Made by a program: the position numbers and the translations under genes. Of a stretch of DNA of 64,000 nucleotides, positions 37,501-56,161 are shown in pieces. The notes below the pieces were generated by a model. That model was not told the DNA's origin and did no database searches. It saw only the letters and a program-made list of their open reading frames with translations. The DNA comes from Giardia muris (lineage: Eukaryota > Fornicata > Diplomonadida > Hexamitidae). Each line of letters begins with the position of its first letter. Position 1 is the first letter of the stretch. The stretch spans positions 682,001-746,000 of the forward strand of contig CM016929.1 of the NCBI GenBank assembly GCA_006247105.1, read 5' to 3'.

Positions 37501-40000
37501 AGCACGAGTTCATGTTATTAGAGACCCACCAACTGAGATCATGCCGGGGAACTCGTTCCTCCTGCCATCCCGTCGGATTCCTGCATACGGACTGCAGCTT
37601 TTGCTGTTACAAGAGGTGGAGAAACTTCAGCTTGGTCTCCGACGCGTCTTCCGTCCAGATACGTTTCTCTTCCGAGTTCTCGCCTACTTCGAACGCTACT
37701 TTGTGGCGACAGTCTCTTCTGCCACGTCCAGCCTAGTAGAGTCTGAAAGGCTAGTACCAACAGCAGGTTTCGCCCACTGTGTCTATGGTGGCGCTGCACC
37801 TCCGGCGAAATACTCCGTTGTGGAGCGGAAGGGAGACTTCGAACCGCTTTACTGCGCACGTGATGCCACTCGTGCCATCTTCACTCCCATTTTTGCAATT
37901 GATCAGCGTGGGTTCTTGATGAAGCTTCGAGCTATTGATGCGCATTTTACTGACATTGGGACTGAAATACGCGTACATATGGAACAGGAGTATGCTAATA
38001 AGCTGCAAGCCGTATCCCAGAAGCTCCTTACTGAGGCACGAGAGCACTCGGACGAAGAGTGTGATATCCATGATCTAATCAATCGTGTGTTTTTCCATAC
38101 CCGTCATAGCCTCGCCCTTGATGCAGTTCTCAGATACAGTACGGCGTCCGAGAACATCTTCATGAAGAATGGATGTGACTTCGACCTGTTCATGGAAGCT
38201 ACCCTTGACAATAACTATGCCTTGCATCCGGAGCTTGAGCCTCTGTTGCAACAGTACAGAGTGCAACGTCACAACCGTGAGAGACTCGTTCAAGAGGAGC
38301 TGGAACGGCTTCGACTTCTGATCCAGACCATACTCGGGGGCTGGCGATCAAAGGGCTTAGCATACAACCTTGCCGGGCTCCAGCTGATAGAAGCAATGAA
38401 GAGCCCTCTTTACCAACGGGCTATACGGCTTTTCCTTCCGGTTCCAGGTGATGAGGAGGATGATAGTCTTGGGGAGCATGACCTCGTTGATGATCAGTAC
38501 CGCGTCAGGCATATGTTCCTCTCGCGTCTAAATCTCATCGAGTTCTCTGCACGGCTCTTCGAGCGGCAATACCGCGATGGCCTAGTTGGCCGTATCACCC
38601 TTAACCCCGAAGGACTGAGGCGCGTCCTTGACGTGGTCTCCCAAGGTTCAAGAGCGTTACCCCTCGCTCGTGCGGCACTCTGCTGCCTTAATGAAGGTCG
38701 CTCGACAATAGGTTTCTACGATTATGGGAAACGTCCCGAAAGCCCCAAAAAGGTATCCGCAACACGACATGCCATGCATTCTCCCGAGTTTGCCGTGCAT
38801 GCCCTGGTTAGTTTGGTCTCTGCTCTTCCTGTAAGCTCACCTAGTATGGACCTTGTCCAGAACGACCTACCAGGACCCGTAGAACCAGATACTCCCCCAC
38901 AGCCGACTATAATTGCGCGAGATGCGCTTGAGAGAGATGATTTAGTTGTCTTCCAACATGATCTGGAGAAACGAATGGAGGCAGTAGAAACCGGAGAGCT
39001 TGACAAGTTCGATGTTCTGACGCGGACTGAGACGAGCACGGACACGCTCTTCACGACGGCGACGGAAGTGACGTCGGAGTCAGACATCGTCGCGGATCCA
39101 AGTACGACGGCGACCACAGTGCGGACTGGGCGGTCGAAGCGAGTGATTTCCGAGCAGGTCCGCAGGCGTGGAGCTGCACGAGCAGCAGACACCCTCCGCT
39201 CACAAGGCCATATTGTTCCTTCAAAGGATAAGGACCTGCAACGCGTTTTTGCTAAGCTCGTCCATGCAGGCACGGGAGAACAAAAGAGGCCTGAGCGGTC
39301 GGAGGCCTCGCGTCTCGACTCTTCGTTGACCCAGAACGTGGTTCGACCCGTCCTGAAGCCCCTTTCTGCCCAGGTAGCTGCAAAGAGCATTCCGCGTATT
39401 CCTGGACGCCTCGTCCCCCCACCTCGGCATGCTCCGCAGATAAAGCTGTCAAACGTCTCTCTCGACTCAAGTATCCTGTCCAGAAGCTCTTCCTCCATGC
39501 TAGAAGACTTGCCACAGGAACACTCAGGAGGACAGGCACACTTAAGAAAGCGTCCACAAGGAAGTTACTCTCAGCAGAATCACGATGTTGCCACGCGATA
39601 TCAGCCTCCAGGTGCCCTTATGCTAAGCGGTAAGTCCATTGCTCCACGGTCCAGCATACCAGATAGATCAATGTCAATGTACTCTTCTTCAACCCGTTTA
39701 TCGAGTGCAACTGGAACTCGGGGCTCTCAGCGGAAGTCAGCGAATAGCCGTCGGAGCAGTATCAGTAGCTCAGAGGAGCTCCCAACTCCGAATCTACCTC
39801 ATTCCGTAGTACAGCCACGCCGACCAGTAACAACTGGTCAGACGCACATGCTGCTGACTGATGACGACCTTAAGAGTATTGAGCAACTTGGGCGGCGAGC
39901 AATTACTGCATCGAATAACAGTACTTGGACAGTTATAGGAGGTATCGCACGCCCTGGGAGTGGGATAGGGATTAAATCCCGCTCGACAAGAAACCACTGA
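28514..40000 (+). CDS. Giant protein with propeller-like N-terminus and long disordered middle
   Basis: About 3828 residues from the ATG at 28514 (MAEHLDIQDL), which follows an AAAA run. The first ~560 residues have repeating hydrophobic strand patterns like a WD40/beta-propeller (for example YALLASAHRATLFYAQ) without clear WD dipeptides. The next ~1700 residues are low complexity, rich in Ser, Arg, Pro and Gln, with recurring RPGSGR and SARS-type elements. From about 2250 to 3480 the sequence looks folded and helical, with charged helices such as RERLVQEELERLRLLIQTI. The C-terminus is again Ser/Arg-rich. No enzyme motif seen; a scaffold role in the cytoskeleton is a guess. The last 1001 bases (39000-40000) lie inside the left arm of the inverted repeat and recur, inverted, at 55161-56161. 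Confidence 0.75.
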   Translation: MAEHLDIQDLGQPSGPPTTRPLRLQCRISDDLVDFDTSPRYALLASAHRATLFYAQSSAVVRSLDFRAAILRVVLAPTDVFACIITDDAVAYLIDLQLPLAAEPVYNAVDLIASAQAGRPIAAIASARRGLLFLPKELPRRISKATISFAGTETPEFLVGFVPCTGDTILGRSLLYFRSLDLLVTYRLRNTFAIVRYSPVGLSVVGDTAGFIYLLATSADLTLVIQDVCSSDADAPALFELGQVYPEPPVSLHILTPRSILLAYADGLMLEYDAFNRQIVKHEIVGISPGMEGSNELVSRQHERVFQSIRGVPPRDHDAITREARSRFSRISPSESLTHQAIFQESLYRESLMDATNVVVDEVRGRTIGEAGTTYPGALDILPYASRRVGVVHDHTFVRGFGSSQVVVVDHYLILFVVVHGYLLAYNLTAYPNSYPPPIFVAYIPRMGITVTETAAVRVANRDVDTKSRTRQFSHMKLRLHGHRLILSTRNALHTLSLPQFLLPLSEYRISVVAPQILHHIPRISKDDLLHNVQELAAELLHSKDGRRCGSRMIRSQSAPLDRVPHSPSHQKPRARSAQRSMPLHPEDIVAIDAHIQQAKERYIRERVLSRILSRIEYGHQPPGTFIQVPNPHSDSPAAVVSDAAPRSNLPLQGRGNQGKYPHSFSASTSSDGSDKDNDHVEYTSSLQLRARRSARMASTAPERQSCPSERSIVHPLHVREASNISAIGSVSSLCPEVQLPPDQLDESSGASHIQSMEVLVQPEPEESVLPSRLYHNSLHGFPRISAPGMRSFDASLGDLLDFILTPSRGSSPTQNVLPSPSQPLCASSPSVAFGALLVGKGAPNIRRVVELRRASRLLQGNARAAHVASDLMTVLQLSRTGERVKTTQRIPVTDAEDVLASGFFTADEQLEIRGALYRCPGRPSDVLAASTGVRPRRKSAYFARPERNETSSLTAQYLPNSFGSHPTSSRRPTTKETVSAGSGPEVQPLPVPSTASPTRTDSRQLDFRSGDFISQRPFAPHKAISPKQVRPAPRIVMKPVAALEESPENVYPLAIEPKEQDVQPSPRDTRSSRARPSSSVPVFTSSVVFEDLEELFPPEQMGSGRPSTQSQPQPHSTSALRRQSHTEAAPVERKAKSVMGTRKEPLTRQPTHHEWLKSRAKSSDNVRITVFSGIPKYYNRQTHIIYPHQNAKEERSPQLNPRYISFAKALPRPSSAEDVVPRQHGVHGGKDRRTTTPETPKRDSTRALRLEAPTATSQEPECSNIDMFSQLHKAFDAIDALEFAEADRSLIHRYTQTISSIIGGQEYAPERPALLVRSLPPTTLAKLTTAIGSLVYNLSVSSAASDDVSVERPAPGALRAALDELNRAFPSMIAVQPESRGSEASHLPRSTFDTGSYQSFTTLPQRKSLIARSSTLNTPAKGLSRQSTQSYMASLPSQRPSENIFSLKDVLNVFSNLGVHVDASGAILPMELERRQKRRHRVEVPCGLADVEDASDDEANVYTCQVKELTMSALNTPSPERKEPRTRRDPAQRSKRLHDQYVVKRHLSSAEYLPPRRELRQLSEKYAAIYHYPFGEGSPGRQSPLLRVSKCDEPPAPQASSISTHHYDRSVSLVQSVLTDLDLLPQAQSFETSIEGYRYTIGQADLTRMLLATSEQSESHSAQAIMALLPESMREDEVFVQSLSDFLGERLVAIRENQVQLGRLFHSRRHGYPERKTPVRCRITGNDEDIRVHKKEQRHSQDREQWSQEQLTKPSLEASQDELEESQVLRAPSPIQDVSELSIISPRKISQGRCRAQDTCRTASPGTDILITPSALASGHFQHKPTKKAISIEPTTKIRQPVTNFSIIQTEESPKQVSAQSAHIKVFMPNVTRQQPDDISIQSARTSEVSGPSTHSFRLFSATHDRIRPRSALAIQELTFDDTRTIPPEVAGSVSRLRSASRGWSSRLSSARTENILGNDSESDSGLPMASSQRSLTSSHLTISLVDFGTPSPVRHIRHDPDKLDFQRVVSARRPGSGRLAVSFVNQVTQSPLRHPSPMTSPLKPTSEITEFNESQCPSTAQALRLEQSLIADAPATDMTQDSLELPTPDLRFLERDQALVKSCVARDPYRLRSARGTSGLSTSPSGIPLRTQRRMNSASKHSDLVETSAGSQPSGHYTGLQKRYRYGTLTPEEGFPAHPGRSRSCLGLRRHVHDGYMSVLQVVLHDFTYQGSSLESSRPTIRETVWKMIQAATDASASPQKAREVHGRSMSRLLAPLPSTLPYPQFASYISPPPQIQISPGLFFSKASPVPASISYIPESNTSAYSRVSMTAESATRPGSGRSSKLAAVISGDPVFQQHDEEFQAQQLLNIASAGSPLSGFLYRDTLRLIHSAYYDSSGAYTYAEAQARSTGLRLHATSMFYNLPACFRASCIFGHTAIDKDPPSQLVAVEDARFWQLEDKASPLEHLAFAVNMDTPFVGDINASTDSPFSDSKDVSDLAISAIIFPSGRTQLVRYIPSSLAHSADASEGYESQLTALQRVVSQSVRVLLLSPRSKSAQHCTYTRTRRPHRPTSPHGGQRTNRWTLKLYQLEAELQRVDRFGVRSLPRTLIDDCSPGFLAQHWLNTIGRHCQSRSQRPFLMQTGQNVALSRFRQRKGSFVTTFEGTPYIPTARPHYILLRHEIELLHTPYYLERCVSDDELMHKGIYEHRHNPDSAKDLAYACEESLSLVTHKVDLLCSLVPSVMNLPLTTKPNEEASVLANEQHICEELERTEVAPAELQLEVFPEGLQIFKYTPFTTIVEGSFLLLAHERIWSFTTSWDRILASPNGMVPSVAQASAIVLEEKGERVKRTPSFTLPTDVEAHLFETGYERYKRNVWQRKKQQIQTMYQLSWEAVEKMSRRRIRKLLRQQKSIGKVRGSFLMERRSSNPSTLTPFSPDEDESRILMFGNPRGYEADMSGQRDGRVYSLDIHAIIAQHRRASTPGSYRPSSAGPSISSIHDESFATVTPLQPRTARVHVIRDPPTEIMPGNSFLLPSRRIPAYGLQLLLLQEVEKLQLGLRRVFRPDTFLFRVLAYFERYFVATVSSATSSLVESERLVPTAGFAHCVYGGAAPPAKYSVVERKGDFEPLYCARDATRAIFTPIFAIDQRGFLMKLRAIDAHFTDIGTEIRVHMEQEYANKLQAVSQKLLTEAREHSDEECDIHDLINRVFFHTRHSLALDAVLRYSTASENIFMKNGCDFDLFMEATLDNNYALHPELEPLLQQYRVQRHNRERLVQEELERLRLLIQTILGGWRSKGLAYNLAGLQLIEAMKSPLYQRAIRLFLPVPGDEEDDSLGEHDLVDDQYRVRHMFLSRLNLIEFSARLFERQYRDGLVGRITLNPEGLRRVLDVVSQGSRALPLARAALCCLNEGRSTIGFYDYGKRPESPKKVSATRHAMHSPEFAVHALVSLVSALPVSSPSMDLVQNDLPGPVEPDTPPQPTIIARDALERDDLVVFQHDLEKRMEAVETGELDKFDVLTRTETSTDTLFTTATEVTSESDIVADPSTTATTVRTGRSKRVISEQVRRRGAARAADTLRSQGHIVPSKDKDLQRVFAKLVHAGTGEQKRPERSEASRLDSSLTQNVVRPVLKPLSAQVAAKSIPRIPGRLVPPPRHAPQIKLSNVSLDSSILSRSSSSMLEDLPQEHSGGQAHLRKRPQGSYSQQNHDVATRYQPPGALMLSGKSIAPRSSIPDRSMSMYSSSTRLSSATGTRGSQRKSANSRRSSISSSEELPTPNLPHSVVQPRRPVTTGQTHMLLTDDDLKSIEQLGRRAITASNNSTWTVIGGIARPGSGIGIKSRSTRNH

Positions 40001-40760: not shown

Positions 40761-42128
40761 TCACGCACCTCGGCATCTTCGAGGAGCAGGAAGTAAGCTG
40801 GGTCCCCTCAAGGAGGAAGGGGCTGTCCTGGGCCGTCCGGGTGCAGGCCCATCTAAGGTCGTTGAGCAGATATTGTTCCCAAGGGAGCCCGCATTGCTCG
40901 TTCCTGCGGGGTAGCAGCCCCCGTTGAGGAGGAAGTAGTTTGTTCCTCCATTCGTCCCGCACTTGTCGCAGGACGTCGAGGAGGCGTCGACGGGGCTGTC
41001 GTCACTCTTCTTGCAGACATCTTCGATGTTCGCCCTCGAGAGAGCCGACCCGACCTCGACACACGCCCCATCGATCGGGACGGTCCCGGCCTTACACTTG
41101 GAGCAGGCCCGCTGGTCTCCGACGAGGAAGGACGAGGCGCAGATCCCGAGGGAGGCAGCTCTGGAGGAGGAGTAGCACCCGCCCTCGTAGAGCATGAAGC
41201 CGTTCTTGCAGGAGGCGCACTTGTTGCCATTGGAGGTGCAGATGTTGCTGGCGGGGGCAGTGGTGCTCGACTGGCAGACACCGTCCACGGGGACGAAGCC
41301 TGCTTGGCACTCCTTGCAGATCGCAAAGGTCCCGTTCAGAGCGAGAGCCGAGGCGGTCGAGCAGTGGGGGTCCTTGACGTCCGCTCCTCCGACCGGGACA
41401 CACTTTGTATTGGTCCCCGTTCCTGTCTTCGCATATCCATCGAGGCAGACGGTACATCCATCGGCTGTGCATGTCCTGCAGTTCTCGACAGAACACTTCG
41501 TGCAGGTGATAGGAGTGCCAGTGGAGTAGTATCCTTCGAGGCACTCCGAGCAGCCGCTGGAGTCGCACACCTTACAGCCCGAGGAGCAGGTGTCAGCATT
41601 GGTCACCAGGAGGCAGTGCTGGAGGGAGGACTGGATGCATTCTGACTTGTCCTGGTCCGGGAGGAAGCCCGTCCTGCACGCATTGCACTTGGGCTTGTTG
41701 GTGGCGGGGGAGGTGCAGGTCTTGCAGTTGGGAACCCCGTTCGTCTCGTCGTCGCAGGTGTAGAGGCCTGTTGGAGCATCCTTGCTCCCCTTCACGAAGA
41801 TGCCTGTCGCATCGCTGGCCCTCTCTGAGCACTTCCCGTTCGATGCCGCCGAGCAGAGAGCAGCGCCCTCGCCTCCACTGGCCTGGTTGTAGCACCCCCC
41901 GTAGAAGAGGAAGTAGGTCCCTGTGCATGCCGTGCAGACACCAGTGGTTGTGTCCTTCGTACAATCGTTGGCTGTTGGGGCCTTGCACGTCCCGTCGATC
42001 GAGGCCTCGGTCGCAGTCGCGCACTCCTTGCAGACCTTCCCCAGCGTCCCGAGGTCGAGGCAGCTCCCCGCCTTGCAGTTGCCTGATGTCTCTCCTTCCG
42101 TACACGAGAGGACTCTCGCGTTCTTCAC
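40761..42128 (-). pseudogene. VSP fragment without start, signal peptide or tail (left copy)
   Basis: An open frame of 455 codons that opens just after a TGA and has only a GTG (42126-42128) as possible start. It encodes cysteine-rich VSP-type sequence with many CxxC motifs (CKEC, CTAC, CNAC, CSKC, CDKC) and the VSP hallmark GGCY three times (GGCYNQ, GGCYSS, GGCYPA). There is no signal peptide. After GNNICSTTLDG the sequence turns into a Pro/Arg-rich stretch of non-VSP character and stops, so the membrane segment and GCRGK tail are missing. It lies 13 bases downstream of the intact VSP on the same strand. It is probably not made as a surface protein but could donate sequence in gene conversion. 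It differs from the right copy at 41126 (Leu here, Ile there) and silently at 41139. Confidence 0.85.
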
Positions 42129-42141
42129 CTCCCCTCACCAT

Positions 42142-44001
42142 TTACTTCCCCCTGCATCCGAACCACCAACCGAGGAAGCCCCCGAGGCCTCCCAGGACCA
42201 GAAGGACGGCAATGACGATCCCCGCAATGGCGCCCCCAGAGAGCCCCGAGGAGCTGGAGGAGGGGGGAGAGGGGCAGACATCCTTGGTGGGAGTGGAGCC
42301 GTCCCAGCAGAGGGTGCACTTCCCATTTGGACAGGAGGTGCACCCACTGGGACAGGCCGTGCAGTCGGAGGGGCTGGTCACAGTAGTGGTCGTGTTGTAG
42401 TACCCAAGGGCGCAGGAGCTGCAGACGGTCGAGGAGGTGCACTTCCCACATCCAGCAGGACAGGGGCTGAAGGTCTTCGTGTTTGAGTCGTATATGATGG
42501 GGGAGCCACTGGCAGGGGTATCGCACTTCCCATCAGTGGCCGCTGAACAGAGCTGACTTCCGACCGAAGTCCCGGGGGTCGAGTCTGCAGGATAGCACCC
42601 GCCCTCGAAGAGGAAGTAGCTGACGCTCCCAACAGTCGAGCAGTTCTCGCACTTCGTGGCGGTCTTCTCGACAGGAGTCCCGTCCGCCTGCATGCAGACG
42701 TTGTCCCCGGCTGCTCTCGTCGTCCCCGTGTTGACGTCCCCGATCGGGGTGCAGGTCCCATCAATCGGGACGAACCCGGCCTTGCACTCCTTGCAGACGA
42801 GGGCCTCCCCGACGAGGAACTGGTTGTCCTTGGAGCAGATCCCCATCGAGCTCGCCTTGTAGGGGGAGAGGCAGGCCCCGTGGTAGAACATGTATCCATT
42901 GAGGCAGGAGGCGCAGGAGCCGGAGGAGGGGTCCTTTGTGCACACCTTGTCGTTCACGTCGACGCACTCGTCGTCGACCGGGACCTGGCTGCTGTTCGAA
43001 CACACGTCGCAGACGAGCCCGAGGCCGAGGTTGAGGCAGCTCTCGCATCCCGTCGAGCACTGGTTGCAGGCCGTGATGGCGGAGCCGTTCTTGACAGGCC
43101 CGAATCCCGCCTTGCAGCCCGTGCACTTGGTCACGTCGTCGTTACAGATCCCGCAATTCTGGACGGTGCAGGCGGTGCAGGTCTTAGCGGTGTCTCCGAC
43201 GAGGCCGAAGCCCTCCTTGCAGGCGGTGCAGGCTGTAGATGAGCAGGTTTTGCAGTTCTCAACGGTGCACTTCGTGCAGGTTCCGTAGTTCTTGGTCGTA
43301 TCGCTGTCAGCAGTATAGAAGAACCCTTCAGAGCACTTGTCGGTATCACAGTTTTGATGATTCGTGTCGGTGTCGCACTGATCGCACCCAGTGGGGCAAG
43401 TCCCACAGGTTGCCGAGGTGCCCGACCCCGAAAGGAAGAAGGCGAGCCCGCACTTGGAGCAGGCGTTGGCAGCACTCGCCTGGACGCAGTTGGGGACTGA
43501 ACAGGAGTAGCAGTTGGCCTTGTTCGCATCTGGGAGGTAGCCCGAGGCGCAGGCGTCGCACTTCCCGGTCCCAACAGCGTATCCAGTTGCGCACGTCTTG
43601 CAGGTGTTGGCCTGGCTCGCCTCGGTGCAGTGGTCGCAGCTCGTGCACTCGAAGCACTGAGTCATGGAGGTCGAGCTGTCGGGTTTGTAGTCCGAGGCGC
43701 AGGTGTTGCACTTACTGGCTGGAGTGGCATATCCAGTCTTGCAGGTGTCGCAGGTGTTGTCAGAACTCGCCGTGGCACAGTTGGTGCAAGCGGCGCAGGA
43801 GTAGCAGGCGGTCTTGTCTTCCTTGGGAAGGAAGCCGTCGTTGCAGGCGTCGCACCCCGAGTTGTCTGCATTGCACGTCTTGCAGTTGTTGATGGAACAA
43901 GTGTCGCTCCTGACTTTTCGGAGCTCGTTGTCGCCGGGAAAAGAGGCCCTTACTTGGGCAGCGAGGACGGCATTCACCACGAGCAGGAGTGAAACGAACA
44001 T
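42142..44001 (-). CDS. Variant-specific surface protein, intact (left copy)
   Basis: 619 residues from the ATG at 43999-44001. Residues 1-18 are a signal peptide (MFVSLLLVVNAVLAAQ). The ectodomain is dominated by CxxC motifs (CKTC, CDAC, CSKC, CTAC) with a GGCY motif near residue 510. A Ser/Gly-rich stretch leads into one membrane span (AIAGIVIAVLLVLGGLGGFL) and the short tail GCRGK. This is the complete VSP plan: a dense cysteine coat on the trophozoite surface, normally one type per cell, switched for antigenic variation. The tail lacks the final Ala of G. intestinalis. An in-frame ATG 47 codons upstream would bury the signal peptide and is rejected. The stop overlaps AGTAAA. It differs from the right copy at 43445 (Leu here, Pro there) and 43308 (Asp here, Asn there). 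Confidence 0.95.
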   Translation of the reverse strand: MFVSLLLVVNAVLAAQVRASFPGDNELRKVRSDTCSINNCKTCNADNSGCDACNDGFLPKEDKTACYSCAACTNCATASSDNTCDTCKTGYATPASKCNTCASDYKPDSSTSMTQCFECTSCDHCTEASQANTCKTCATGYAVGTGKCDACASGYLPDANKANCYSCSVPNCVQASAANACSKCGLAFFLSGSGTSATCGTCPTGCDQCDTDTNHQNCDTDKCSEGFFYTADSDTTKNYGTCTKCTVENCKTCSSTACTACKEGFGLVGDTAKTCTACTVQNCGICNDDVTKCTGCKAGFGPVKNGSAITACNQCSTGCESCLNLGLGLVCDVCSNSSQVPVDDECVDVNDKVCTKDPSSGSCASCLNGYMFYHGACLSPYKASSMGICSKDNQFLVGEALVCKECKAGFVPIDGTCTPIGDVNTGTTRAAGDNVCMQADGTPVEKTATKCENCSTVGSVSYFLFEGGCYPADSTPGTSVGSQLCSAATDGKCDTPASGSPIIYDSNTKTFSPCPAGCGKCTSSTVCSSCALGYYNTTTTVTSPSDCTACPSGCTSCPNGKCTLCWDGSTPTKDVCPSPPSSSSSGLSGGAIAGIVIAVLLVLGGLGGFLGWWFGCRGK

Positions 44002-45901
44002 TCTACCGGTAGAGGGTCGAAGCGGGATTCCGGGTGTGCTGGTGCCGGACAGAGGGCTCGGAAGGACTGTCGGGATGTGGGAAGGAGTCGAGAGCGGGCC
44101 GTGGGAAGAGGCGTTCGAGGTCGTCCAGAGGGGTCGCGGCATTGTCAGGAGGGAAGGGACATCCCGCAGGACGGGGCAGATCCGACTTGGGAATAGTCCG
44201 AAGGTCCATCCCCCGTCCTGGACTCACTCCCCCCGTGGATCTGGAGGACATCGGACGCCTTTGAGTTGAGGGGAGAGGTCGTTCTGCAGGCAGGTTCATG
44301 ACCTCATGTGGCCGTCTGCCCTCAGGGACAAGCCCGGCCATGACAGGGTCCGGGGGTCCGCTTCGACGGGGAGCATGTGATCACATCCCTCGGCACTGGA
44401 CAACTCTACCAGCACCCCGGTTGTCCCGGCCCCACTTGTGCGAGTGCTACGTGGACCAGTCCAGGACCACGCTGGTGGACGAGGAGCACGGCTGATAGTT
44501 GATATGGCGTGCCGATCCCTGACAGGGGACTCGCAGCATCCGGAAGTCCTGAGCAGTCTCGCATGCCTCAAGACGCCTCTGGTGGGGGAACGTCCTGGGC
44601 ATCGATCCGCCTGGGGACTGCACAGGGAGGCAGTGTCCTTGGCGTACTCGGTCAGGACTGGACCGACGACGATGCTCAGACGAAGGCCCGGTCCTCGTCT
44701 TCGGGGCTGATGGTCTGGGACGTTAGAGGGCTCGTATGCCACTGACTCCACTCTGAAGGACAGACTTCATCGCTTCCAGCCGGCACAGAAGACCCCGTGG
44801 CCGCCCCGTTGCTCGTCTACCAGTCCGAAAGGAGACCGGTCGAAGGTTTCCTCAATGCTGTGCTTCCGTCCAGACATCCCACGCCTCTGAGGTCAACGGT
44901 CATCCCAGCTCGGATCGTGGGAGCCAGCAGGACGTCCTGGACCACAGAGAACCGAGGGGCAGGGGGGTTCCGAAGACGCCCAGGAAGTCCCATTGGGCGG
45001 CTGTGCAGTCCAACAAGAAGCGCCCAGCCGACACGATCCTCCGGGGCCGGCCTGGCCTACGACTTGCGGGCTCTTTGGTGGTCGGTTCCTGCAGCCTCCT
45101 CTGCGTACTGAGAAGTCAGAAGCGTCCTTCTGCTCCCCGATGGCTCGGCCCCAGGCCATGTAGATCTTCTACCCTCTCTGTGACTACAAAGACGAGGAGG
45201 GGGAAACAGGGAGGCCAAGAGGTCGCTTGTGGAGGACTTCATCGTGCAACCCCGGGCCCAAGGGACTGCTCGACTGTCCTTACCTCCGGGGTATCGTACA
45301 TCGGCCATCGAGAGGAGATGAGCCACGCCCGGGGCGGTTTCAGGTCGTGAGGAACAGATCCCGGCAGTTATGCTCCGCTCGGGGCCGCAGGCAGGAGTCC
45401 TTCCGAGTGGTCGTGGCTCCCTCCGGCTTCCAACCGACGAGGAACGGGGTCAGACGTGCGTCCCACCGGAGCTCTCCGAAAGGATGGTGCGTCGTTCCTT
45501 GACAGGTTGAGAGGCAGATCGATGCTCGTGGTTCGGGCCTGCTCTCCAGGACATCCTGGTCCGTTCTGGTTGTTCCTGGGCACCTCAGGAGAACGGGATA
45601 ACCACACAGCTCCCCGGCCTGAGCCCACCAGCTGCTCGGGGAGGGGCCGATCGGACGGACTGCTATCACCAACGGACAATGGACGAGCCCCCACCATCCC
45701 CTTGCCCGGATATCCCGGAGCGAGTCTTCCCCTCTCCCTTCTCTGAGGAGAAGGACCGAAGGGCTCCAAGCACATCGGCCTTCTTGTCGAAAGAGCCTCC
45801 AGCCCCCGGTCGACTGGAGGCATGGGACGAGGGTGCTCCTCCCCAGCTATTCACACGTCCTTCGTCCGTCCGTCCTGGTGGGGCACGATCCCCAGGACTC
45901 G
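44002..45901. other. VSP upstream region without recognisable gene, left
   Basis: 1.9 kb between the VSP start and the 3' end of the ankyrin-kinase gene. GC-rich and poor in stop codons, so several overlapping frames of 90-150 codons are open on both strands, but none has a signal peptide, domain, VSP, ankyrin or kinase motif. Up to 45871 it is duplicated in the right arm, with two of the six arm differences (44522, 44635). It presumably contains the VSP promoter; the bases around the VSP ATG read GAATGTT, sharing the ATGTT of the G. intestinalis VSP initiator but with G where that has a pyrimidine. Confidence 0.5.
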
Positions 45902-46837: not shown

Positions 46838-47032
46838 GCCTGGAGAGACTTGAAGAGGAGTCCGAATAGCCCTGGGTCTTCTCGGTTGGACCACAGACCC
46901 TCTCCAGGCACGCCCATGTGGGGGAGCGAAGAGATCATCCCCTGGCCTCCAGGACCGAGTCCAATCGTCCCGGGGTTCGGGCTCACCACAGACCTCCAGC
47001 TCATCTGGATGGACGGAGAGGGGGTCATATGG

Positions 47033-47690
47033 CTACGCATCCGGCCACTCAGGATACTCGACGACAAGGGCCTCGTCAGTCTTCCCCCGGCAGTACGGAC
47101 AGCAGTGCTCGATCCGGTCCGCACATACCTCACAGACGACGAGGTGCCGGCAGGGAAGGATGACCGCGTCCTTCTGGCGTGAGAGGCAGACGACGCACCC
47201 ATCAATCATCTCGTCATCACAGAAGGCGTCGTCCAGTGCTCCGGGCTCGCAGAGGAGTGCCGACCAGACCATCTCTCCGAGCTCCAGGGCTTCCGACTGC
47301 TCGAACGACCGCTCGATCGGGGACAGGAGGGCAAGGACGTGGTGCGGGCTGAGCATCTCCAGCCTCTCCCGTACCTTCCGCATGACCGCCTCCTCCAGGG
47401 CATCTGCAACTGCTCGATACGTCCTTGATAGGAGTGAGTCAGGCCGCTCCCGAACAAGCCCTCGGATCCCCTCGATGTGCATTCTTCCGTCCTCTTCGTG
47501 GACTGCCGCCTCGTCCGCCAGGAGTCTTGCACTCGACCCGGCCCTCCTGGAGTGCAAGCAGAAGGGCCGTCTCCTTCCGGTTGTTGAACAGCCCCCTCGA
47601 GTGGGAGGAGCAGGGGGACAGATGCGGGACGTCCGTGAGAGGCGGCCATCATCAGGGCTGCATCCCATGAGCCTCGATGCCCACGTGTAG
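47033..47690 (-). pseudogene. Decayed ankyrin-RING gene with frame breaks
   Basis: The 3' part encodes a clear C-terminal RING finger: CVVCLSRQKDAVILPC, then RHLVVCEVCADRI and CCPYC. Upstream in the same frame is a helical stretch (SRTYRAVADALEEAVMRKVR). Ankyrin pieces are scattered over other frames: ALMMAASHGRPASVPLLLPL lies around 47600-47660, ETALLLALQEGRVEC around 47560 in a second frame, and LLADEAAVHEEDG around 47510 in the RING frame. At least two frame changes are therefore needed to link ankyrin repeats to the RING. The intact gene at 48383 shows the expected ankyrin-RING layout. Sequencing errors could mimic this, but several breaks within 150 bases suggest real decay. The upstream boundary is approximate. 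Confidence 0.7.
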
Positions 47691-47699
47691 TGTTCCTGA

Positions 47700-48382
47700 C
47701 TCCAAGGACGTCGGTGGCTCCCTGGAGGGGGATGGGTCTGTCCCCTCTTGAGGAGCCTCCTGTCCCCAGACCACCATTCCCGTGCCCCTCGGAGTCCTCC
47801 ACTCCTCGCTCGTGGGGAGGAGGGCTCGACGACCTCGGGGTGGTCGTGGAATGTTGGGAGCATGGGGGCGGTCCGGGAGGGAGTCCACTCCTTCCTCGTC
47901 CGCCTCTGAGAGGAGGAAGCAGTCTGTGCAGTCCGTCCACCTTCTTCCTCTCCCCGACCTCATCGAGATCGTCCTTCCCTCTCGATGTCTCAAAGGAGTG
48001 GGGGATGTTTCCGAACCCCAGCTCCCTCTCCTCCGGTCCAAGAGGCCGACCCGCCATCTCACATCCCCTCAACAACAGAGGGGCGTCCAGATCAGTGCAC
48101 CCGTCCCCGGGAAGCCAGTGGGCTCCTCTCTCCGTCTGGCACGGCTCTCGTCAGAGACCATTCGTCCTCGAGAGGGGAACGGGTCCGACCCTCACCAGGG
48201 GGTTGGGGAGCCATAAGGGGAGACCGATGACCAGTGGGAGCTCATCCAGGGACGAGAGCACCCCGAGGAGGGCTGCGGGCCTCCCGTCCTCGGGGCAGGT
48301 CGTTGGTAGCGGTTAGATGCCCAGAGTGTCAGATGGGGGCCTCAGTGGAAGGCTGATGAAAGTGGACACTTAATGTTCAAAA
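47700..48382. other. GC-rich spacer without recognised gene
   Basis: About 680 bases between the decayed ankyrin-RING gene and the intact one. Open frames on both strands are low-complexity and match nothing I know. The last ~25 bases before the ATG at 48383 become AT-rich (TTAATGTTCAAAA) and probably hold the promoter of the plus-strand gene. Confidence 0.45.
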
Positions 48383-49186
48383 ATGTCCGTTACGGCTTTG
48401 ATGGAGGCGGCCCGGAACGGGGACCTCGAGGGCGTGAAAAGGAACCTCAATCAGGTTGGGGAGAAGGACAGAAATGGTCAGACGGCCCTGATGCTGGCTG
48501 CAGAATGCGGCCACGCCAAATGCATTCCCCTCCTCGAGAAGGAGATTGGGATACAGAGCAACCGTGGATGGACCGCACTGATGAATGCTGCCCTCAATGG
48601 CCGCACAACTTGCGCCCGACTCCTCCTCCCTGAGGCCGGGAAGCAGACGACGAAGGAATATACAATCACTTCAGATGGCGTTGTGGTGACTTTTCCTCCC
48701 GGAACAACTGCTCTCATGATGGCAGCCTGCAGGAACTATCCCGAGGTCGTCCGGCTTCTCATTCCTTATGAACAGGGATTGATTAATTCTAGTGGCTACA
48801 GGGCCCAATGGTGTGCGGCGGAGAGCCCATGGGTAGGAAGATTTTCCCAGGTCTGCAAGCTCCTTGAGAGAGAGGACATGCATCGCCTCCCTCCGCCACA
48901 TAACCCCGGTGAAGTGCCTGGGCTCCGGGATCGTGTTAGCGAACTCACTGCCGAGAACGAGTATCTCAAGAAGAAACTCTCTTTATTCAGGAATTCAAAC
49001 GATGAGGTGGAGAATAGTATTTCAGATCCCCTGACCTGCATTGTCTGCCTCAGGAACCCGAAGGACACGCTCCTCCAGCCCTGTGGCCACCTCTGCGTCT
49101 GCTCTACTTGTGCAAAGCAGATCATGAACCAGACCTGCCCGCTCTGCAGGACTCCCATCGAGAGCACTGTCAAGGTGCACCTCTAG
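48383..49186 (+). CDS. Ankyrin-repeat RING finger protein
   Basis: 267 residues from the ATG after TTCAAAA. Ankyrin repeats occupy about 1-160, with the Giardia-style core TALMxAA at about 4-10, 34-40, 64-70 and 108-114. A short coiled coil follows (about 180-205, LRDRVSELTAENEYLKKKLS). A C-terminal RING begins at C219: CIVC, C-x-H in QPCGHLCVC, STC and CPLC, ending at about 257. This is the ankyrin-coiled coil-RING layout seen in some Giardia '21.1'-like proteins. The RING type resembles E3 ubiquitin ligases such as IAP/MUL1. Ubiquitin-ligase activity is inferred, not shown. It points away from the spacer centre towards the right arm, whose exact repeat begins 103 bases after its stop. Confidence 0.88.
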   Translation: MSVTALMEAARNGDLEGVKRNLNQVGEKDRNGQTALMLAAECGHAKCIPLLEKEIGIQSNRGWTALMNAALNGRTTCARLLLPEAGKQTTKEYTITSDGVVVTFPPGTTALMMAACRNYPEVVRLLIPYEQGLINSSGYRAQWCAAESPWVGRFSQVCKLLEREDMHRLPPPHNPGEVPGLRDRVSELTAENEYLKKKLSLFRNSNDEVENSISDPLTCIVCLRNPKDTLLQPCGHLCVCSTCAKQIMNQTCPLCRTPIESTVKVHL

Positions 49187-51159
49187 GACTCTCATATCTT
49201 ACACCCATTGTCTTAGATATCAACGAACTATGTGGAGTGCCTGACTGGACACTCTCAACTCCCCGAGTCCTGGGAGTCGTGCTCCATCAGGACGGACGAA
49301 GGACGTGTGAATAGCTGGGGAGGAGCACCCTCGTCCCATGCCTCCAGTCGACCGGGGGCTGGAGGCTCTTTCGACAAGAAGGCCGATGTGCTTGGAGCCC
49401 TTCGGTCCTTCTCCTCAGAGAAGGGAGAGGGGAAGACTCGCTCCGGGATATCCGGGCAAGGGGATGGTGGGGGCTCGTCCATTGTCCGTTGGTGATAGCA
49501 GTCCGTCCGATCGGCCCCTCCCCGAGCAGCTGGTGGGCTCAGGCCGGGGAGCTGTGTGGTTATCCCGTTCTCCTGAGGTGCCCAGGAACAACCAGAACGG
49601 ACCAGGATGTCCTGGAGAGCAGGCCCGAACCACGAGCATCGATCTGCCTCTCAACCTGTCAAGGAACGACGCACCATCCTTTCGGAGAGCTCCGGTGGGA
49701 CGCACGTCTGACCCCGTTCCTCGTCGGTTGGAAGCCGGAGGGAGCCACGACCACTCGGAAGGACTCCTGCCTGCGGCCCCGAGCGGAGCATAACTGCCGG
49801 GATCTGTTCCTCACGACCTGAAACCGCCCCGGGCGTGGCTCATCTCCTCTCGATGGCCGATGTACGATACCCCGGAGGTAAGGACAGTCGAGCAGTCCCT
49901 TGGGCCCGGGGTTGCACGATGAAGTCCTCCACAAGCGACCTCTTGGCCTCCCTGTTTCCCCCTCCTCGTCTTTGTAGTCACAGAGAGGGTAGAAGATCTA
50001 CATGGCCTGGGGCCGAGCCATCGGGGAGCAGAAGGACGCTTCTGACTTCTCAGTACGCAGAGGAGGCTGCAGGAACCGACCACCAAAGAGCCCGCAAGTC
50101 GTAGGCCAGGCCGGCCCCGGAGGATCGTGTCGGCTGGGCGCTTCTTGTTGGACTGCACAGCCGCCCAATGGGACTTCCTGGGCGTCTTCGGAACCCCCCT
50201 GCCCCTCGGTTCTCTGTGGTCCAGGACGTCCTGCTGGCTCCCACGATCCGAGCTGGGATGACCGTTGACCTCAGAGGCGTGGGATGTCTGGACGGAAGCA
50301 CAGCATTGAGGAAACCTTCGACCGGTCTCCTTTCGGACTGGTAGACGAGCAACGGGGCGGCCACGGGGTCTTCTGTGCCGGCTGGAAGCGATGAAGTCTG
50401 TCCTTCAGAGTGGAGTCAGTGGCATACGAGCCCTCTAACGTCCCAGACCATCAGCCCCGAAGACGAGGACCGGGCCTTCGTCTGAGCATCGTCGTCGGTC
50501 CAGTCCTGACCGAGTACGCCAAGGATACTGCCTCCCTGTGCAGTCCCCAGGCGGATCGATGCCCAGGACGTTCCCCCACCAGAGGCGTCTTGAGGCATGC
50601 GAGACTGCTCAGGACTTCCGGATGCTGCGAGTCCCCTGCCAGGGATCGGCACGCCATATCAACTATCAGCCGTGCTCCTCGTCCACCAGCGTGGTCCTGG
50701 ACTGGTCCACGTAGCACTCGCACAAGTGGGGCCGGGACAACCGGGGTGCTGGTAGAGTTGTCCAGTGCCGAGGGATGTGATCACATGCTCCCCGTCGAAG
50801 CGGACCCCCGGACCCTGTCATGGCCGGGCTTGTCCCTGAGGGCAGACGGCCACATGAGGTCATGAACCTGCCTGCAGAACGACCTCTCCCCTCAACTCAA
50901 AGGCGTCCGATGTCCTCCAGATCCACGGGGGGAGTGAGTCCAGGACGGGGGATGGACCTTCGGACTATTCCCAAGTCGGATCTGCCCCGTCCTGCGGGAT
51001 GTCCCTTCCCTCCTGACAATGCCGCGACCCCTCTGGACGACCTCGAACGCCTCTTCCCACGGCCCGCTCTCGACTCCTTCCCACATCCCGACAGTCCTTC
51101 CGAGCCCTCTGTCCGGCACCAGCACACCCGGAATCCCGCTTCGACCCTCTACCGGTAGA
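49187..51159. other. VSP upstream region without recognisable gene, right
   Basis: The first ~80 bases are unique; weak similarity to the left arm begins near 49265 and exact repeat at 49290. The rest mirrors 44002-45871, with differences at 50526 and 50639. Overlapping open frames on both strands, none with a recognisable domain. Probable site of the right VSP promoter. Confidence 0.5.
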
Positions 51160-53019
51160 ATGTTCGTTTCACTCCTGCTCGTGGTGAATGCCGTCCTCGC
51201 TGCCCAAGTAAGGGCCTCTTTTCCCGGCGACAACGAGCTCCGAAAAGTCAGGAGCGACACTTGTTCCATCAACAACTGCAAGACGTGCAATGCAGACAAC
51301 TCGGGGTGCGACGCCTGCAACGACGGCTTCCTTCCCAAGGAAGACAAGACCGCCTGCTACTCCTGCGCCGCTTGCACCAACTGTGCCACGGCGAGTTCTG
51401 ACAACACCTGCGACACCTGCAAGACTGGATATGCCACTCCAGCCAGTAAGTGCAACACCTGCGCCTCGGACTACAAACCCGACAGCTCGACCTCCATGAC
51501 TCAGTGCTTCGAGTGCACGAGCTGCGACCACTGCACCGAGGCGAGCCAGGCCAACACCTGCAAGACGTGCGCAACTGGATACGCTGTTGGGACCGGGAAG
51601 TGCGACGCCTGCGCCTCGGGCTACCTCCCAGATGCGAACAAGGCCAACTGCTACTCCTGTTCAGTCCCCAACTGCGTCCAGGCGAGTGCTGCCAACGCCT
51701 GCTCCAAGTGCGGGCCCGCCTTCTTCCTTTCGGGGTCGGGCACCTCGGCAACCTGTGGGACTTGCCCCACTGGGTGCGATCAGTGCGACACCGACACGAA
51801 TCATCAAAACTGTGATACCGACAAGTGCTCTGAAGGGTTCTTCTATACTGCTAACAGCGATACGACCAAGAACTACGGAACCTGCACGAAGTGCACCGTT
51901 GAGAACTGCAAAACCTGCTCATCTACAGCCTGCACCGCCTGCAAGGAGGGCTTCGGCCTCGTCGGAGACACCGCTAAGACCTGCACCGCCTGCACCGTCC
52001 AGAATTGCGGGATCTGTAACGACGACGTGACCAAGTGCACGGGCTGCAAGGCGGGATTCGGGCCTGTCAAGAACGGCTCCGCCATCACGGCCTGCAACCA
52101 GTGCTCGACGGGATGCGAGAGCTGCCTCAACCTCGGCCTCGGGCTCGTCTGCGACGTGTGTTCGAACAGCAGCCAGGTCCCGGTCGACGACGAGTGCGTC
52201 GACGTGAACGACAAGGTGTGCACAAAGGACCCCTCCTCCGGCTCCTGCGCCTCCTGCCTCAATGGATACATGTTCTACCACGGGGCCTGCCTCTCCCCCT
52301 ACAAGGCGAGCTCGATGGGGATCTGCTCCAAGGACAACCAGTTCCTCGTCGGGGAGGCCCTCGTCTGCAAGGAGTGCAAGGCCGGGTTCGTCCCGATTGA
52401 TGGGACCTGCACCCCGATCGGGGACGTCAACACGGGGACGACGAGAGCAGCCGGGGACAACGTCTGCATGCAGGCGGACGGGACTCCTGTCGAGAAGACC
52501 GCCACGAAGTGCGAGAACTGCTCGACTGTTGGGAGCGTCAGCTACTTCCTCTTCGAGGGCGGGTGCTATCCTGCAGACTCGACCCCCGGGACTTCGGTCG
52601 GAAGTCAGCTCTGTTCAGCGGCCACTGATGGGAAGTGCGATACCCCTGCCAGTGGCTCCCCCATCATATACGACTCAAACACGAAGACCTTCAGCCCCTG
52701 TCCTGCTGGATGTGGGAAGTGCACCTCCTCGACCGTCTGCAGCTCCTGCGCCCTTGGGTACTACAACACGACCACTACTGTGACCAGCCCCTCCGACTGC
52801 ACGGCCTGTCCCAGTGGGTGCACCTCCTGTCCAAATGGGAAGTGCACCCTCTGCTGGGACGGCTCCACTCCCACCAAGGATGTCTGCCCCTCTCCCCCCT
52901 CCTCCAGCTCCTCGGGGCTCTCTGGGGGCGCCATTGCGGGGATCGTCATTGCCGTCCTTCTGGTCCTGGGAGGCCTCGGGGGCTTCCTCGGTTGGTGGTT
53001 CGGATGCAGGGGGAAGTAA
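51160..53019 (+). CDS. Variant-specific surface protein, intact (right copy)
   Basis: 619 residues with the same layout as the left copy: signal peptide 1-18, cysteine-rich ectodomain of CxxC motifs, one membrane span near 589-613 and the GCRGK tail (615-619). Two amino-acid differences from the left copy were found: Pro for Leu in CSKCGPAFFLS (base 51716) and Asn for Asp in YTANSDT (base 51853). Both are coding changes in the ectodomain, yet the frame is intact, so both copies could be expressed. The stop codon sits in GGAAGTAAATG, giving an overlapping AGTAAA signal. Transcription runs outward, away from the spacer, as in the left arm. Confidence 0.95.
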   Translation: MFVSLLLVVNAVLAAQVRASFPGDNELRKVRSDTCSINNCKTCNADNSGCDACNDGFLPKEDKTACYSCAACTNCATASSDNTCDTCKTGYATPASKCNTCASDYKPDSSTSMTQCFECTSCDHCTEASQANTCKTCATGYAVGTGKCDACASGYLPDANKANCYSCSVPNCVQASAANACSKCGPAFFLSGSGTSATCGTCPTGCDQCDTDTNHQNCDTDKCSEGFFYTANSDTTKNYGTCTKCTVENCKTCSSTACTACKEGFGLVGDTAKTCTACTVQNCGICNDDVTKCTGCKAGFGPVKNGSAITACNQCSTGCESCLNLGLGLVCDVCSNSSQVPVDDECVDVNDKVCTKDPSSGSCASCLNGYMFYHGACLSPYKASSMGICSKDNQFLVGEALVCKECKAGFVPIDGTCTPIGDVNTGTTRAAGDNVCMQADGTPVEKTATKCENCSTVGSVSYFLFEGGCYPADSTPGTSVGSQLCSAATDGKCDTPASGSPIIYDSNTKTFSPCPAGCGKCTSSTVCSSCALGYYNTTTTVTSPSDCTACPSGCTSCPNGKCTLCWDGSTPTKDVCPSPPSSSSSGLSGGAIAGIVIAVLLVLGGLGGFLGWWFGCRGK

Positions 53020-53021
53020 AT
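53016..53021 (+). terminator. AGTAAA polyadenylation-type signal overlapping the VSP stop codon
   Basis: The VSP ends GGGAAGTAAATGG, so the stop TAA lies inside AGTAAA, the known Giardia AGTRAA signal. The left VSP copy has the same arrangement (42140-42145 on the minus strand). Confidence 0.6.
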
Positions 53022-53032
53022 GGTGAGGGGAG

Positions 53033-54400
53033 GTGAAGAACGCGAGAGTCCTCTCGTGTACGGAAGGAGAGACATCAGGCAACTGCAAGGCGGGGAGCTG
53101 CCTCGACCTCGGGACGCTGGGGAAGGTCTGCAAGGAGTGCGCGACTGCGACCGAGGCCTCGATCGACGGGACGTGCAAGGCCCCAACAGCCAACGATTGT
53201 ACGAAGGACACAACCACTGGTGTCTGCACGGCATGCACAGGGACCTACTTCCTCTTCTACGGGGGGTGCTACAACCAGGCCAGTGGAGGCGAGGGCGCTG
53301 CTCTCTGCTCGGCGGCATCGAACGGGAAGTGCTCAGAGAGGGCCAGCGATGCGACAGGCATCTTCGTGAAGGGGAGCAAGGATGCTCCAACAGGCCTCTA
53401 CACCTGCGACGACGAGACGAACGGGGTTCCCAACTGCAAGACCTGCACCTCCCCCGCCACCAACAAGCCCAAGTGCAATGCGTGCAGGACGGGCTTCCTC
53501 CCGGACCAGGACAAGTCAGAATGCATCCAGTCCTCCCTCCAGCACTGCCTCCTGGTGACCAATGCTGACACCTGCTCCTCGGGCTGTAAGGTGTGCGACT
53601 CCAGCGGCTGCTCGGAGTGCCTCGAAGGATACTACTCCACTGGCACTCCTATCACCTGCACGAAGTGTTCTGTCGAGAACTGCAGGACATGCACAGCCGA
53701 TGGATGTACCGTCTGCCTCGATGGATATGCGAAGACAGGAACGGGGACCAATACAAAGTGTGTCCCGGTCGGAGGAGCGGACGTCAAGGACCCCCACTGC
53801 TCGACCGCCTCGGCTCTCGCTCTGAACGGGACCTTTGCGATCTGCAAGGAGTGCCAAGCAGGCTTCGTCCCCGTGGACGGTGTCTGCCAGTCGAGCACCA
53901 CTGCCCCCGCCAGCAACATCTGCACCTCCAATGGCAACAAGTGCGCCTCCTGCAAGAACGGCTTCATGCTCTACGAGGGCGGGTGCTACTCCTCCTCCAG
54001 AGCTGCCTCCCTCGGGATCTGTGCCTCGTCCTTCATCGTCGGAGACCAGCGGGCCTGCTCCAAGTGTAAGGCCGGGACCGTCCCGATCGATGGGGCGTGT
54101 GTCGAGGTCGGGTCGGCTCTCTCGAGGGCGAACATCGAAGATGTCTGCAAGAAGAGTGACGACAGCCCCGTCGACGCCTCCTCGACGTCCTGCGACAAGT
54201 GCGGGACGAATGGAGGAACAAACTACTTCCTCCTCAACGGGGGCTGCTACCCCGCAGGAACGAGCAATGCGGGCTCCCTTGGGAACAATATCTGCTCAAC
54301 GACCTTAGATGGGCCTGCACCCGGACGGCCCAGGACAGCCCCTTCCTCCTTGAGGGGACCCAGCTTACTTCCTGCTCCTCGAAGATGCCGAGGTGCGTGA
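53033..54400 (+). pseudogene. VSP fragment without start, signal peptide or tail (right copy)
   Basis: Mirror image of the fragment at 40761-42128: an open frame of 455 codons beginning after a TGA with only GTG as possible start, VSP-type CxxC and GGCY motifs, no signal peptide, no membrane span and no GCRGK. It differs by Ile for Leu in ASSFIVGDQ (base 54035) and a silent change at 54022. The 3' end leaves VSP homology after GNNICSTTLDG, about 80-100 residues before a membrane segment would be expected. Confidence 0.85.
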
Positions 54401-55160
54401 AAGCGATACCATTCATCGGATTGAGTTCTTGTCCTTGAGCAGTGATCTGGATGTAGAGGAGGACGAACGAATTACAGTTCTGATCTGTAAGCGACCATAT
54501 CAGTTGTATCTTTCCTGCATGTTCTGCGCGAAAGATATATCCATCGCCGGTCTAATCGTCTGACGAAAAGCAGCATATGAAGTGTATGGTTTATCAAAGC
54601 ACATTTACAAGCCCGAAGACTGGTAGGCTCGGATATTCGCCCGTTACTGGATCTTATAAAATAGACTAGCAATCTAAAAGCTCGGTGAGGTAGACGTCTC
54701 CTAAGGAGTTATCAAGTCTTACCCATAGAAAGAGAGCAGTATACCGGTTAAGAAATCCCTATCCAGGCTCTTTCTCTAGTTAACCCCATATCGACTTCGA
54801 GTTAGTGACGGATCGGCTAGCATGAGGCAAACCCTACCGAACAGGTCTCTCATATCAAGCTCAGTATTGCTGCTTAAAGGTGGGAACGAGTCTATCATGG
54901 ATGGTCCCAAGTTCAGAAGCATATAGGATCTATAGTATCCCATACCCACCGCCAAAAGACCTGGTGAAATCTGGTATCACCTTTCTTTCTGCAAGTATAA
55001 ACCAGCTACGAAGTAGAAGTATCCACAAATAGGCCTGTGATCTGCAACGATGAGTTCATATAAGATACCTTGATTAGGGTCAGAAGAGGGTCGACTCCCT
55101 AAGCTTCATAGTTCCTGAACGACTAGACGATATATCTTATGATGATTTCAAATGCAGTAT
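54401..55160. other. Apparently non-coding spacer, right arm
   Basis: 760 bases identical on the opposite strand to 40001-40760. AT-rich relative to its surroundings, no long frame and no recognised RNA gene. Here it separates the VSP fragment from the convergent 3' tail fragment of the giant gene. Confidence 0.6.
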
Positions 55161-56161
55161 TCAGTGGTTTCTTGTCGAGCGGGATTTAATCCCTATCCCA
55201 CTCCCAGGGCGTGCGATACCTCCTATAACTGTCCAAGTACTGTTATTCGATGCAGTAATTGCTCGCCGCCCAAGTTGCTCAATACTCTTAAGGTCGTCAT
55301 CAGTCAGCAGCATGTGCGTCTGACCAGTTGTTACTGGTCGGCGTGGCTGTACTACGGAATGAGGTAGATTCGGAGTTGGGAGCTCCTCTGAGCTACTGAT
55401 ACTGCTCCGACGGCTATTCGCTGACTTCCGCTGAGAGCCCCGAGTTCCAGTTGCACTCGATAAACGGGTTGAAGAAGAGTACATTGACATTGATCTATCT
55501 GGTATGCTGGACCGTGGAGCAATGGACTTACCGCTTAGCATAAGGGCACCTGGAGGCTGATATCGCGTGGCAACATCGTGATTCTGCTGAGAGTAACTTC
55601 CTTGTGGACGCTTTCTTAAGTGTGCCTGTCCTCCTGAGTGTTCCTGTGGCAAGTCTTCTAGCATGGAGGAAGAGCTTCTGGACAGGATACTTGAGTCGAG
55701 AGAGACGTTTGACAGCTTTATCTGCGGAGCATGCCGAGGTGGGGGGACGAGGCGTCCAGGAATACGCGGAATGCTCTTTGCAGCTACCTGGGCAGAAAGG
55801 GGCTTCAGGACGGGTCGAACCACGTTCTGGGTCAACGAAGAGTCGAGACGCGAGGCCTCCGACCGCTCAGGCCTCTTTTGTTCTCCCGTGCCTGCATGGA
55901 CGAGCTTAGCAAAAACGCGTTGCAGGTCCTTATCCTTTGAAGGAACAATATGGCCTTGTGAGCGGAGGGTGTCTGCTGCTCGTGCAGCTCCACGCCTGCG
56001 GACCTGCTCGGAAATCACTCGCTTCGACCGCCCAGTCCGCACTGTGGTCGCCGTCGTACTTGGATCCGCGACGATGTCTGACTCCGACGTCACTTCCGTC
56101 GCCGTCGTGAAGAGCGTGTCCGTGCTCGTCTCAGTCCGCGTCAGAACATCGAACTTGTCAA
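55161..56161 (-). pseudogene. Truncated 3' fragment of the 3828-aa gene
   Basis: Encodes the C-terminal ~333 residues of the giant gene from DKFDVLTRTETS to the shared stop. At 56161 the similarity ends abruptly and the frame runs on for about 44 codons antisense to APC11 with no relation to the giant protein. It has no native start or promoter and lacks over 90 percent of the gene. Clearly a by-product of the inverted duplication; it may still be transcribed as antisense if the VSP transcript reads through. Confidence 0.93.

Follow-up and report, generated by a model that had tools for sequence, protein, structure and literature searches.

A 17-kb palindrome around an inverted VSP gene pair in Giardia muris and its probable origin by homologous copying

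How did two nearly identical copies of a VSP locus come to lie mirror-wise, a few kilobases apart, in the genome of Giardia muris, and by what process were they made alike? The question is raised by a stretch of 64,000 nucleotides (assembly GCA_006247105.1, 9.74 Mb in 52 contigs; contig CM016929.1, here C5:682001-746000), referred to below as the window. A sequence-only reading of the window had described a 17-kb palindrome with 6.87-kb arms, about 99.9% identical and free of indels, and this was confirmed: the arms pair base for base over 6,872 bp each, with coordinates that sum to 95161, and differ at six positions (41126, 41139, 43308, 43445, 44522 and 44635 in the left arm) with no indel, giving 99.913% identity. 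Mismatch density rises abruptly to background at either side of the arms. When the whole window was scanned for repeats of at least 200 bp, this inverted pair was the sole repeat, and no direct repeats were found. The palindrome, named P5, consists of the following parts.

39000..45871, plus strand: left palindrome arm, 6,872 bp; aligned with the reverse-complemented right arm, it shows 6 mismatches
45872..49289, no strand: spacer, 3,418 bp, with a NEK-type kinase, a RING remnant and an ankyrin-RING gene (ARP-2 type); sole full-length genomic copy
49290..56161, minus strand: right palindrome arm, 6,872 bp, pairing with the left arm

P5 is a real two-copy palindrome whose likeness is due to recombination or recent copying. 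We consider it likely that the palindrome was formed, and is perhaps maintained, through homologous copying from one VSP locus onto its inverted counterpart; at P5 the copying would have begun at short inverted blocks and run left to right.

Each arm begins, at the spacer, with a 1.87-kb upstream region, followed outward by an intact VSP gene of 619 amino acids (aa), a VSP fragment and 1,001 bp that form the end of a 3,828-aa gene. An outward-pointing intact VSP and a VSP fragment in each arm had been noted before, and both were found again at these positions.

42142..44001, minus strand: intact VSP, left copy, 619 aa, GCRGK tail (PF03302, 3e-21); of the published chromosome 5 pair 24787/24792, with size and distance as in Table 3 of Xu et al. 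2020
51160..53019, plus strand: intact VSP, right copy, 619 aa, GCRGK tail; translation compared with the left copy
40761..42134, minus strand: VSP fragment (psi-VSP), left copy, 457 open codons and a stop, without VSP-type start or tail (PF03302, 4.9e-15)
53027..54400, plus strand: VSP fragment (psi-VSP), right copy, without VSP-type start or tail; one residue off the left copy
44002..45871, minus strand: VSP upstream region in the left arm; 1,900 nt compared across VSP loci
49290..51159, plus strand: VSP upstream region, right copy; 1,900 nt compared across VSP loci

The gene pair 24787/24792 is already in print (Xu et al. 2020, PMC7641422), where it forms the chromosome 5 head-to-head row of Table 3 (619 aa, 7,158 bp apart), with NEK, zinc and ARP-2 genes between the VSPs as in the window. 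That table lists identical pairs, whereas residues 186 (L/P) and 232 (D/N) distinguish the two VSPs of P5. The locus also looks like the identical inverted VSP pairs of Giardia in general, with two near-identical full genes of 619 aa each, head-to-head at 7,158 bp, and near-identical flanks that reach 1,870 bp upstream of the VSP, and 3,142 bp on its downstream side, before diverging abruptly. The main-text sections of Xu et al. give the identical genes and the intervening contents, but not the palindrome, the arm lengths, the edges, the shared spacers or any arm-to-arm copying. New beyond print are the extension of the arms far past the gene and the family of such loci in the genome.

Because the assembly was made from PacBio RS II reads (Xu et al. 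2020, PMC7641422), and the linking of flanks and the spacer orientation in palindromes of 16-26 kb rest on reads longer than an arm, we considered a fold-back or mis-join. Distinct sequence is nevertheless present both between and beyond the arms: the 3,418-bp spacer has no mirror copy of itself, its two ends differ from each other, the two outer flanks are distinct, and six bases separate the arms. The outer right junction occurs once in the genome, its arm half being found otherwise in the left arm only, and identical inverted pairs are in print for another Giardia species (PMC2996952). The artefact, scarcely credible on this evidence, was rejected on the distinct spacer and flanks. The spacer had been called unique, which holds for its full length; parts of it are common to dispersed loci, with at least 148 genomic matches including the spacer itself. 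Arms more than 99% alike around a spacer without a mirror copy are the pattern of conversion-type palindromes, and those of mammalian sex chromosomes have it too (PMC3723533, PMC8981503). In the latter, the likeness is ascribed to arm-to-arm gene conversion, shown across individuals or species, whereas P5 has shorter arms, a protist host and is known here from one assembly.

The inner edges of the arms carry the first line of evidence on the process. The elements that meet there, together with the spacer genes, are as follows.

45815..45901, no strand: left inner-edge block common to NEK-type and ARP2-type VSP flanks, the proposed inverted homology (80-88-bp matches, 83-93% between loci)
49264..49346, no strand: right inner-edge block, the last 26 bp lying beyond the arm
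45902..46837, minus strand: NEK-type kinase with a weak ankyrin match, 3' end toward the left arm (PF00069, 2.3e-58; NEK name taken from the spacer contents in Table 3)
47033..47863, minus strand: RING-containing frame, a remnant (PF13920, 6.7e-13)
48383..49186, plus strand: ankyrin-RING protein (ARP-2 type), 3' end toward the right arm (Pfam scan)

On the left of the P5 spacer edge, the sequence is collinear with a NEK-type VSP locus at C1:2.766 Mb (82%, 749 columns) and with the palindrome P4 (81%); on the right, it is collinear with the ARP2-type loci S5, P2 and P1c (86.6-88.3%). The arm thus ends at the point where NEK-type and ARP2-type loci diverge. Its innermost 53-57 bp recur at 32 or more other places, and past the edge a 4-bp offset brings 22 of 26 bp into agreement (score 32, against 29 for the top of 200 shuffles). 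At the palindrome P2, the two sides of the inner edges also follow two locus types, those of P1c and S5.

The outer edge is one-sided, as the neighbouring genes show.

28514..40000, plus strand: 3,828-aa neighbour gene, whole at the left, its last 1,001 bp inside the arm (frame and translation); no Pfam family was found for it in the Pfam scan
55161..56161, minus strand: 3' fragment of the 3,828-aa gene, comprising its final 333 codons and placed outermost in the right arm; its translation equals the tail of the whole gene
56194..56466, plus strand: RBX1/APC11-like RING-H2 gene, starting 33 bp beyond the last arm base (PF12678, PF12861)

Since the 3,828-aa gene is whole at the left and only its last 333 codons are present at the right arm end, the left arm was probably the source and copying at P5 probably ran left to right. 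Three of the seven VSP palindromes described below (P5, P4 and P1c) have a long frame that spans one outer edge and is truncated at the opposite one; no such frame was seen at the other four. Beyond the outer edges, no similarity above shuffles was found at the six loci tested (P2b left out). The linker between upstream region and spacer, short in P5 and at the NEK-type locus C1:2.766 Mb and longer in S5, P2 and P1c, agrees with the left arm as source and is a second, weaker mark.

In the mechanism that we favour, a short block from the 3' flank of NEK-type and ankyrin-RING genes would have lain inverted at the two spacer ends, and recombination there would have copied the left VSP locus over the right one. 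The copied tract would have extended away from the spacer to take in the upstream region, the intact VSP with its adjoining fragment, and the 3'-terminal kilobase of the 3,828-aa gene, ending just short of the RBX1/APC11-like gene. The process may have been break-induced replication or long-tract gene conversion. Inverted pairs would be expected to persist, since exchange between inverted arms flips the spacer, while exchange between direct copies deletes one of them. Homologous copying is favoured because the inner edge coincides with the homology limit of two other locus types and because the outer edge is one-sided, with a neighbour gene cut short. If the left locus had been duplicated once, very recently and in inverted orientation, with no later exchange between the arms and with six ordinary mutations, a one-sided copy of the 3,828-aa gene would equally be left; such a duplication need not, however, end where two locus types part, nor leave similarity past the edge.

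Further loci were chosen for inverted matches of the upstream end of the arm or for a recurring edge, rather than by a blind genome scan. With the upstream end of the arm as query, 58 matches were obtained, and 8 of the 11 long ones outside the window formed four inverted pairs of equal score. Table 3 of Xu et al. 2020 (PMC7641422) lists seven identical G. muris VSP pairs, both head-to-head and tail-to-tail, and a separate four-copy cluster on chromosome 2. All seven pairs sit in palindromes (arms 5.8-11.4 kb, divergence 0-0.23%, spacers 1.6-4.2 kb, 16-26 kb overall), and our gene sizes and distances, the latter subtracted from frame coordinates, match that table in every case.

P5 (window): arm 6,872 bp, 6 mismatches; 619 aa, 7158 bp apart, matches Table 3
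P2: arm 5,795 bp, 1 mismatch; 624 aa, 8794 bp apart, matches Table 3
P4: arm 11,435 bp, 12 mismatches; 623 aa, 8303 bp apart, matches Table 3
P1c: arm 9,056 bp, 0 mismatches; 594 aa, 1658 bp apart, matches Table 3
P1a: arm 11,158 bp, 17 mismatches; 596 aa, 2025 bp apart, matches Table 3
P1d: arm 6,575 bp, 15 mismatches; 620 aa, 8400 bp apart, matches Table 3
P2b: arm 9,644 bp, 0 mismatches; 523 aa, 1656 bp apart, matches Table 3

The comparable palindromes at the six other published pairs support copying across the family, while on the duplication account seven recent duplications are needed for the high likeness at seven of seven pairs. No long palindrome was found at the single-VSP places S5 and S1e. 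A lone VSP lies between 1,219-bp arms, 100% alike, at C1:1593448-1604720.

Most inner edges of the other palindromes coincide with the ends of dispersed sequences, namely a coiled-coil-coding block in P4 and P1d and the conserved VSP 3' end in P1a, P1c and P2b. Among the best 40 of 81 candidates, with P1d and T1 (C1:1282422-1286235) counted in, the left edge of P4 recurs in full or near-full length at no fewer than 7 further places and the right edge at no fewer than 31. The P2b edge recurs at four further places at least (P1a, P1c, C2:896 kb and C1:221 kb), and the 3' half of the P2b VSP at many more, among the matches listed. The base-exact edges shared by P4 and P1d were considered as proof of an old palindrome and then downgraded, both P4 edges being dispersed. 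Given this dispersal, palindromes arising anew time after time at one block would explain the edges as well as old palindromes under steady conversion.

Near-identical spacers were found to carry different antigens. The spacers of P1c and P2b are 97% alike, and that of P1a resembles both at 96-97% in its two end parts and at 71-72% in part of the middle; the VSPs of these three loci share 45-56% aa identity between loci and 99.8-100% between arms. The spacers of P4, P1d and T1 are likewise 96-97% alike. The T1 arms, 337 bp long and 100% alike mutually, match the P4 and P1d arms in the inner 159 bp alone. Comparing the inner arms of P4 with those of P1d gives a difference of 5.1-5.4%, as against 0.19 and 0.40% within the respective loci, and the inner edges of both are dispersed modules. 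As judged from these sequences, the two sides of one spacer have changed together, whatever the order of events. That near-identical spacers hold different antigens between arms that are alike points to the exchange of antigens within shared frames and, like the inner edges placed at the ends of dispersed blocks, weighs against plain inverted duplication.

About 1.9 kb 5' of the VSPs is 90-97% identical across eight of nine loci compared (P2b left out), the exception being P1d, where likeness is limited to the last few hundred bases. Likeness to the window runs on to about nucleotide 500 of the VSP in seven of eight comparisons, and the remaining gene is a mosaic. The earlier suggestion that the arms supply donor sequence is therefore plausible, VSP bodies being mosaic between loci; recombination or gene conversion among VSPs and psi-VSPs has also been suggested by Xu et al. 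2020 (PMC7641422). The length of this conserved upstream stretch is striking next to the published median intergenic distance of the genome, 37 bp (PMC7641422).

Across the seven VSP palindromes, there are 51 mismatches in 60,535 bp. Eight of the 51 fall no more than 150 bp from an inner edge, where a uniform spread would put 0.9; the corresponding stretches at the outer edges have none. In the four palindromes with at least three mismatches, these are clustered (P = 0.02 for P5; 0 of 20,000 simulations for each of P4, P1a and P1d). Among the fetched loci, in which donors were sought, the clusters at P4, P1a and P1d mostly mix states found elsewhere, ten differences within 193 bp of P1d mixing states of other loci, and the P5 cluster looks like new mutations. 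Compared with the fetched relatives, positions 41126, 44522 and 44635 of P5 look altered in the right arm and 43308 and 43445 in the left, 41139 being undecided; the changed states at 43308 and at 44635 are each shared with one relative, and there was no sign of a foreign tract among the differences.

Several of these observations weigh against homologous copying. The six P5 differences, spread over both arms, look like new point mutations in this comparison; P5 has no mismatch within 1,236 bp of its inner edge, and P4 alone contributes five of the eight inner-edge mismatches. The edge sequences of the other groups are dispersed, so shared edges are no proof of old palindromes, and the inner edge of P5 was not found at any other fetched palindrome. 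The NEK-type P4 has a longer linker, so a short one is not universal to NEK-type loci, and T2 (C2:893.5-898.5 kb) has a P1c-type spacer with one VSP only. A single recent duplication of the left locus draws support from the unblemished inner edge of P5 and from the five of six differences that look like one-arm changes, two of them shared with one relative. Weighed against the homology-limited edges, it seems to us unlikely, although it deserves more credit than any other alternative. Since the P5 inner edge was found at no other fetched palindrome, one event is indistinguishable there from repeated conversion. The earlier alternative of very recent duplication or continuing gene conversion therefore stands insofar as recombination or recent copying made the arms alike; it is narrowed toward homologous copying by an inner edge set by homology and an outer edge that is one-sided, although a single event would suffice at P5.

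The palindromes may act as copying frames, an idea that we put forward tentatively: a new VSP body brought into one arm by gene conversion would spread to the other together with its flanks, while the spacer stays. The antigen would then be exchanged in both copies with the spacer kept, and the same process would sweep housekeeping neighbours along. The P2b arms hold the only two PGK matches found in a search of the genome (C2:1185860-1187089 and C2:1198638-1199867) and also a beta-CASP nuclease-like gene; bystanders in the arms of P1a and P4 are a peroxiredoxin-like gene and the C-terminal part of a tubulin gene, respectively. Such frames would provide a two-copy antigen back-up in a parasite genus for which, to our knowledge, neither mating nor meiosis has been reported.

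Long near-identical inverted repeats can also recombine so as to flip the spacer, and the palindrome might thereby serve as a switch that alters which VSP is expressed. In the human palindrome P6, inversions have been found, though they are rare compared with conversions (PMC3723533). However, the arm includes the 1.87 kb upstream of each VSP, which is the same in both orientations, so a flip would leave the directly upstream sequence unchanged; the outer and inner direction marks fit the present orientation, weakly, and the pairs are both head-to-head and tail-to-tail. A switch as the main function was rejected on the position of the upstream region, and we regard it as very improbable.

Identical inverted pairs are known from Giardia lamblia WB: Adam et al. 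2010 (PMC2996952) reported 14 identical vsp pairs, 4 head-to-head and 10 tail-to-tail, and took gene duplication and transposition to be their source. Together with Table 3 of Xu et al., this makes every identical pair of the two genome papers an inverted one (G. lamblia, 14 of 14; G. muris, 7 of 7, the four-copy cluster on chromosome 2 being separate). The G. lamblia flanks are also alike up to an abrupt point, but there the likeness ends 139-729 bp from the genes, with 2.2-3.8 kb between them, whereas the arms of the seven G. muris palindromes span 5.8-11.4 kb and can take in genes next to the VSP locus. Adam et al. called the identical pairs "an interesting, but cryptic observation". Because the G. 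muris pairs are parts of long palindromes, this puzzle becomes a set of testable recombination questions, framed by inner edges that stop at the limit of homology, by outer edges that are one-sided at three loci, by spacers common to several loci and by the exchange of antigens. Full-text literature searches, which did not reach subscription papers and supplements, found no Giardia paper on VSP palindromes. The available text of PMC11169602 and of PMC7048089 holds nothing on them, the latter counting 2, 14 and 0 inverted duplications in three isolates.

Concerning the pair in P1a, the left VSP (C1:837211-839001) ends in CRRK and the right one in CRGK, in a pair published as identical in Table 3 of Xu et al. 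P1a is also flanked by 1,777-bp direct repeats, 100% identical (C1:825985-827761 and C1:852776-854552), each of which holds most of a 580-aa gene whose last residues differ.

Three shorter palindromes contain NEK-like frames, without an intact VSP frame in the fetched stretch; their arms measure 2.04 kb (7 mismatches and one gap), 1.35 kb (14 mismatches) and 2.02 kb (1 mismatch). Pfam confirmed one NEK-type gene (palindrome C5a), and C5b and C2c were called NEK by likeness of their frames. Two NEK-type palindromes lie about 54 kb apart (C5:122-132 kb and C5:176-186 kb), are mutually inverted, have their outer edges in common and share a flanking 397-aa gene that is 99.75% identical.

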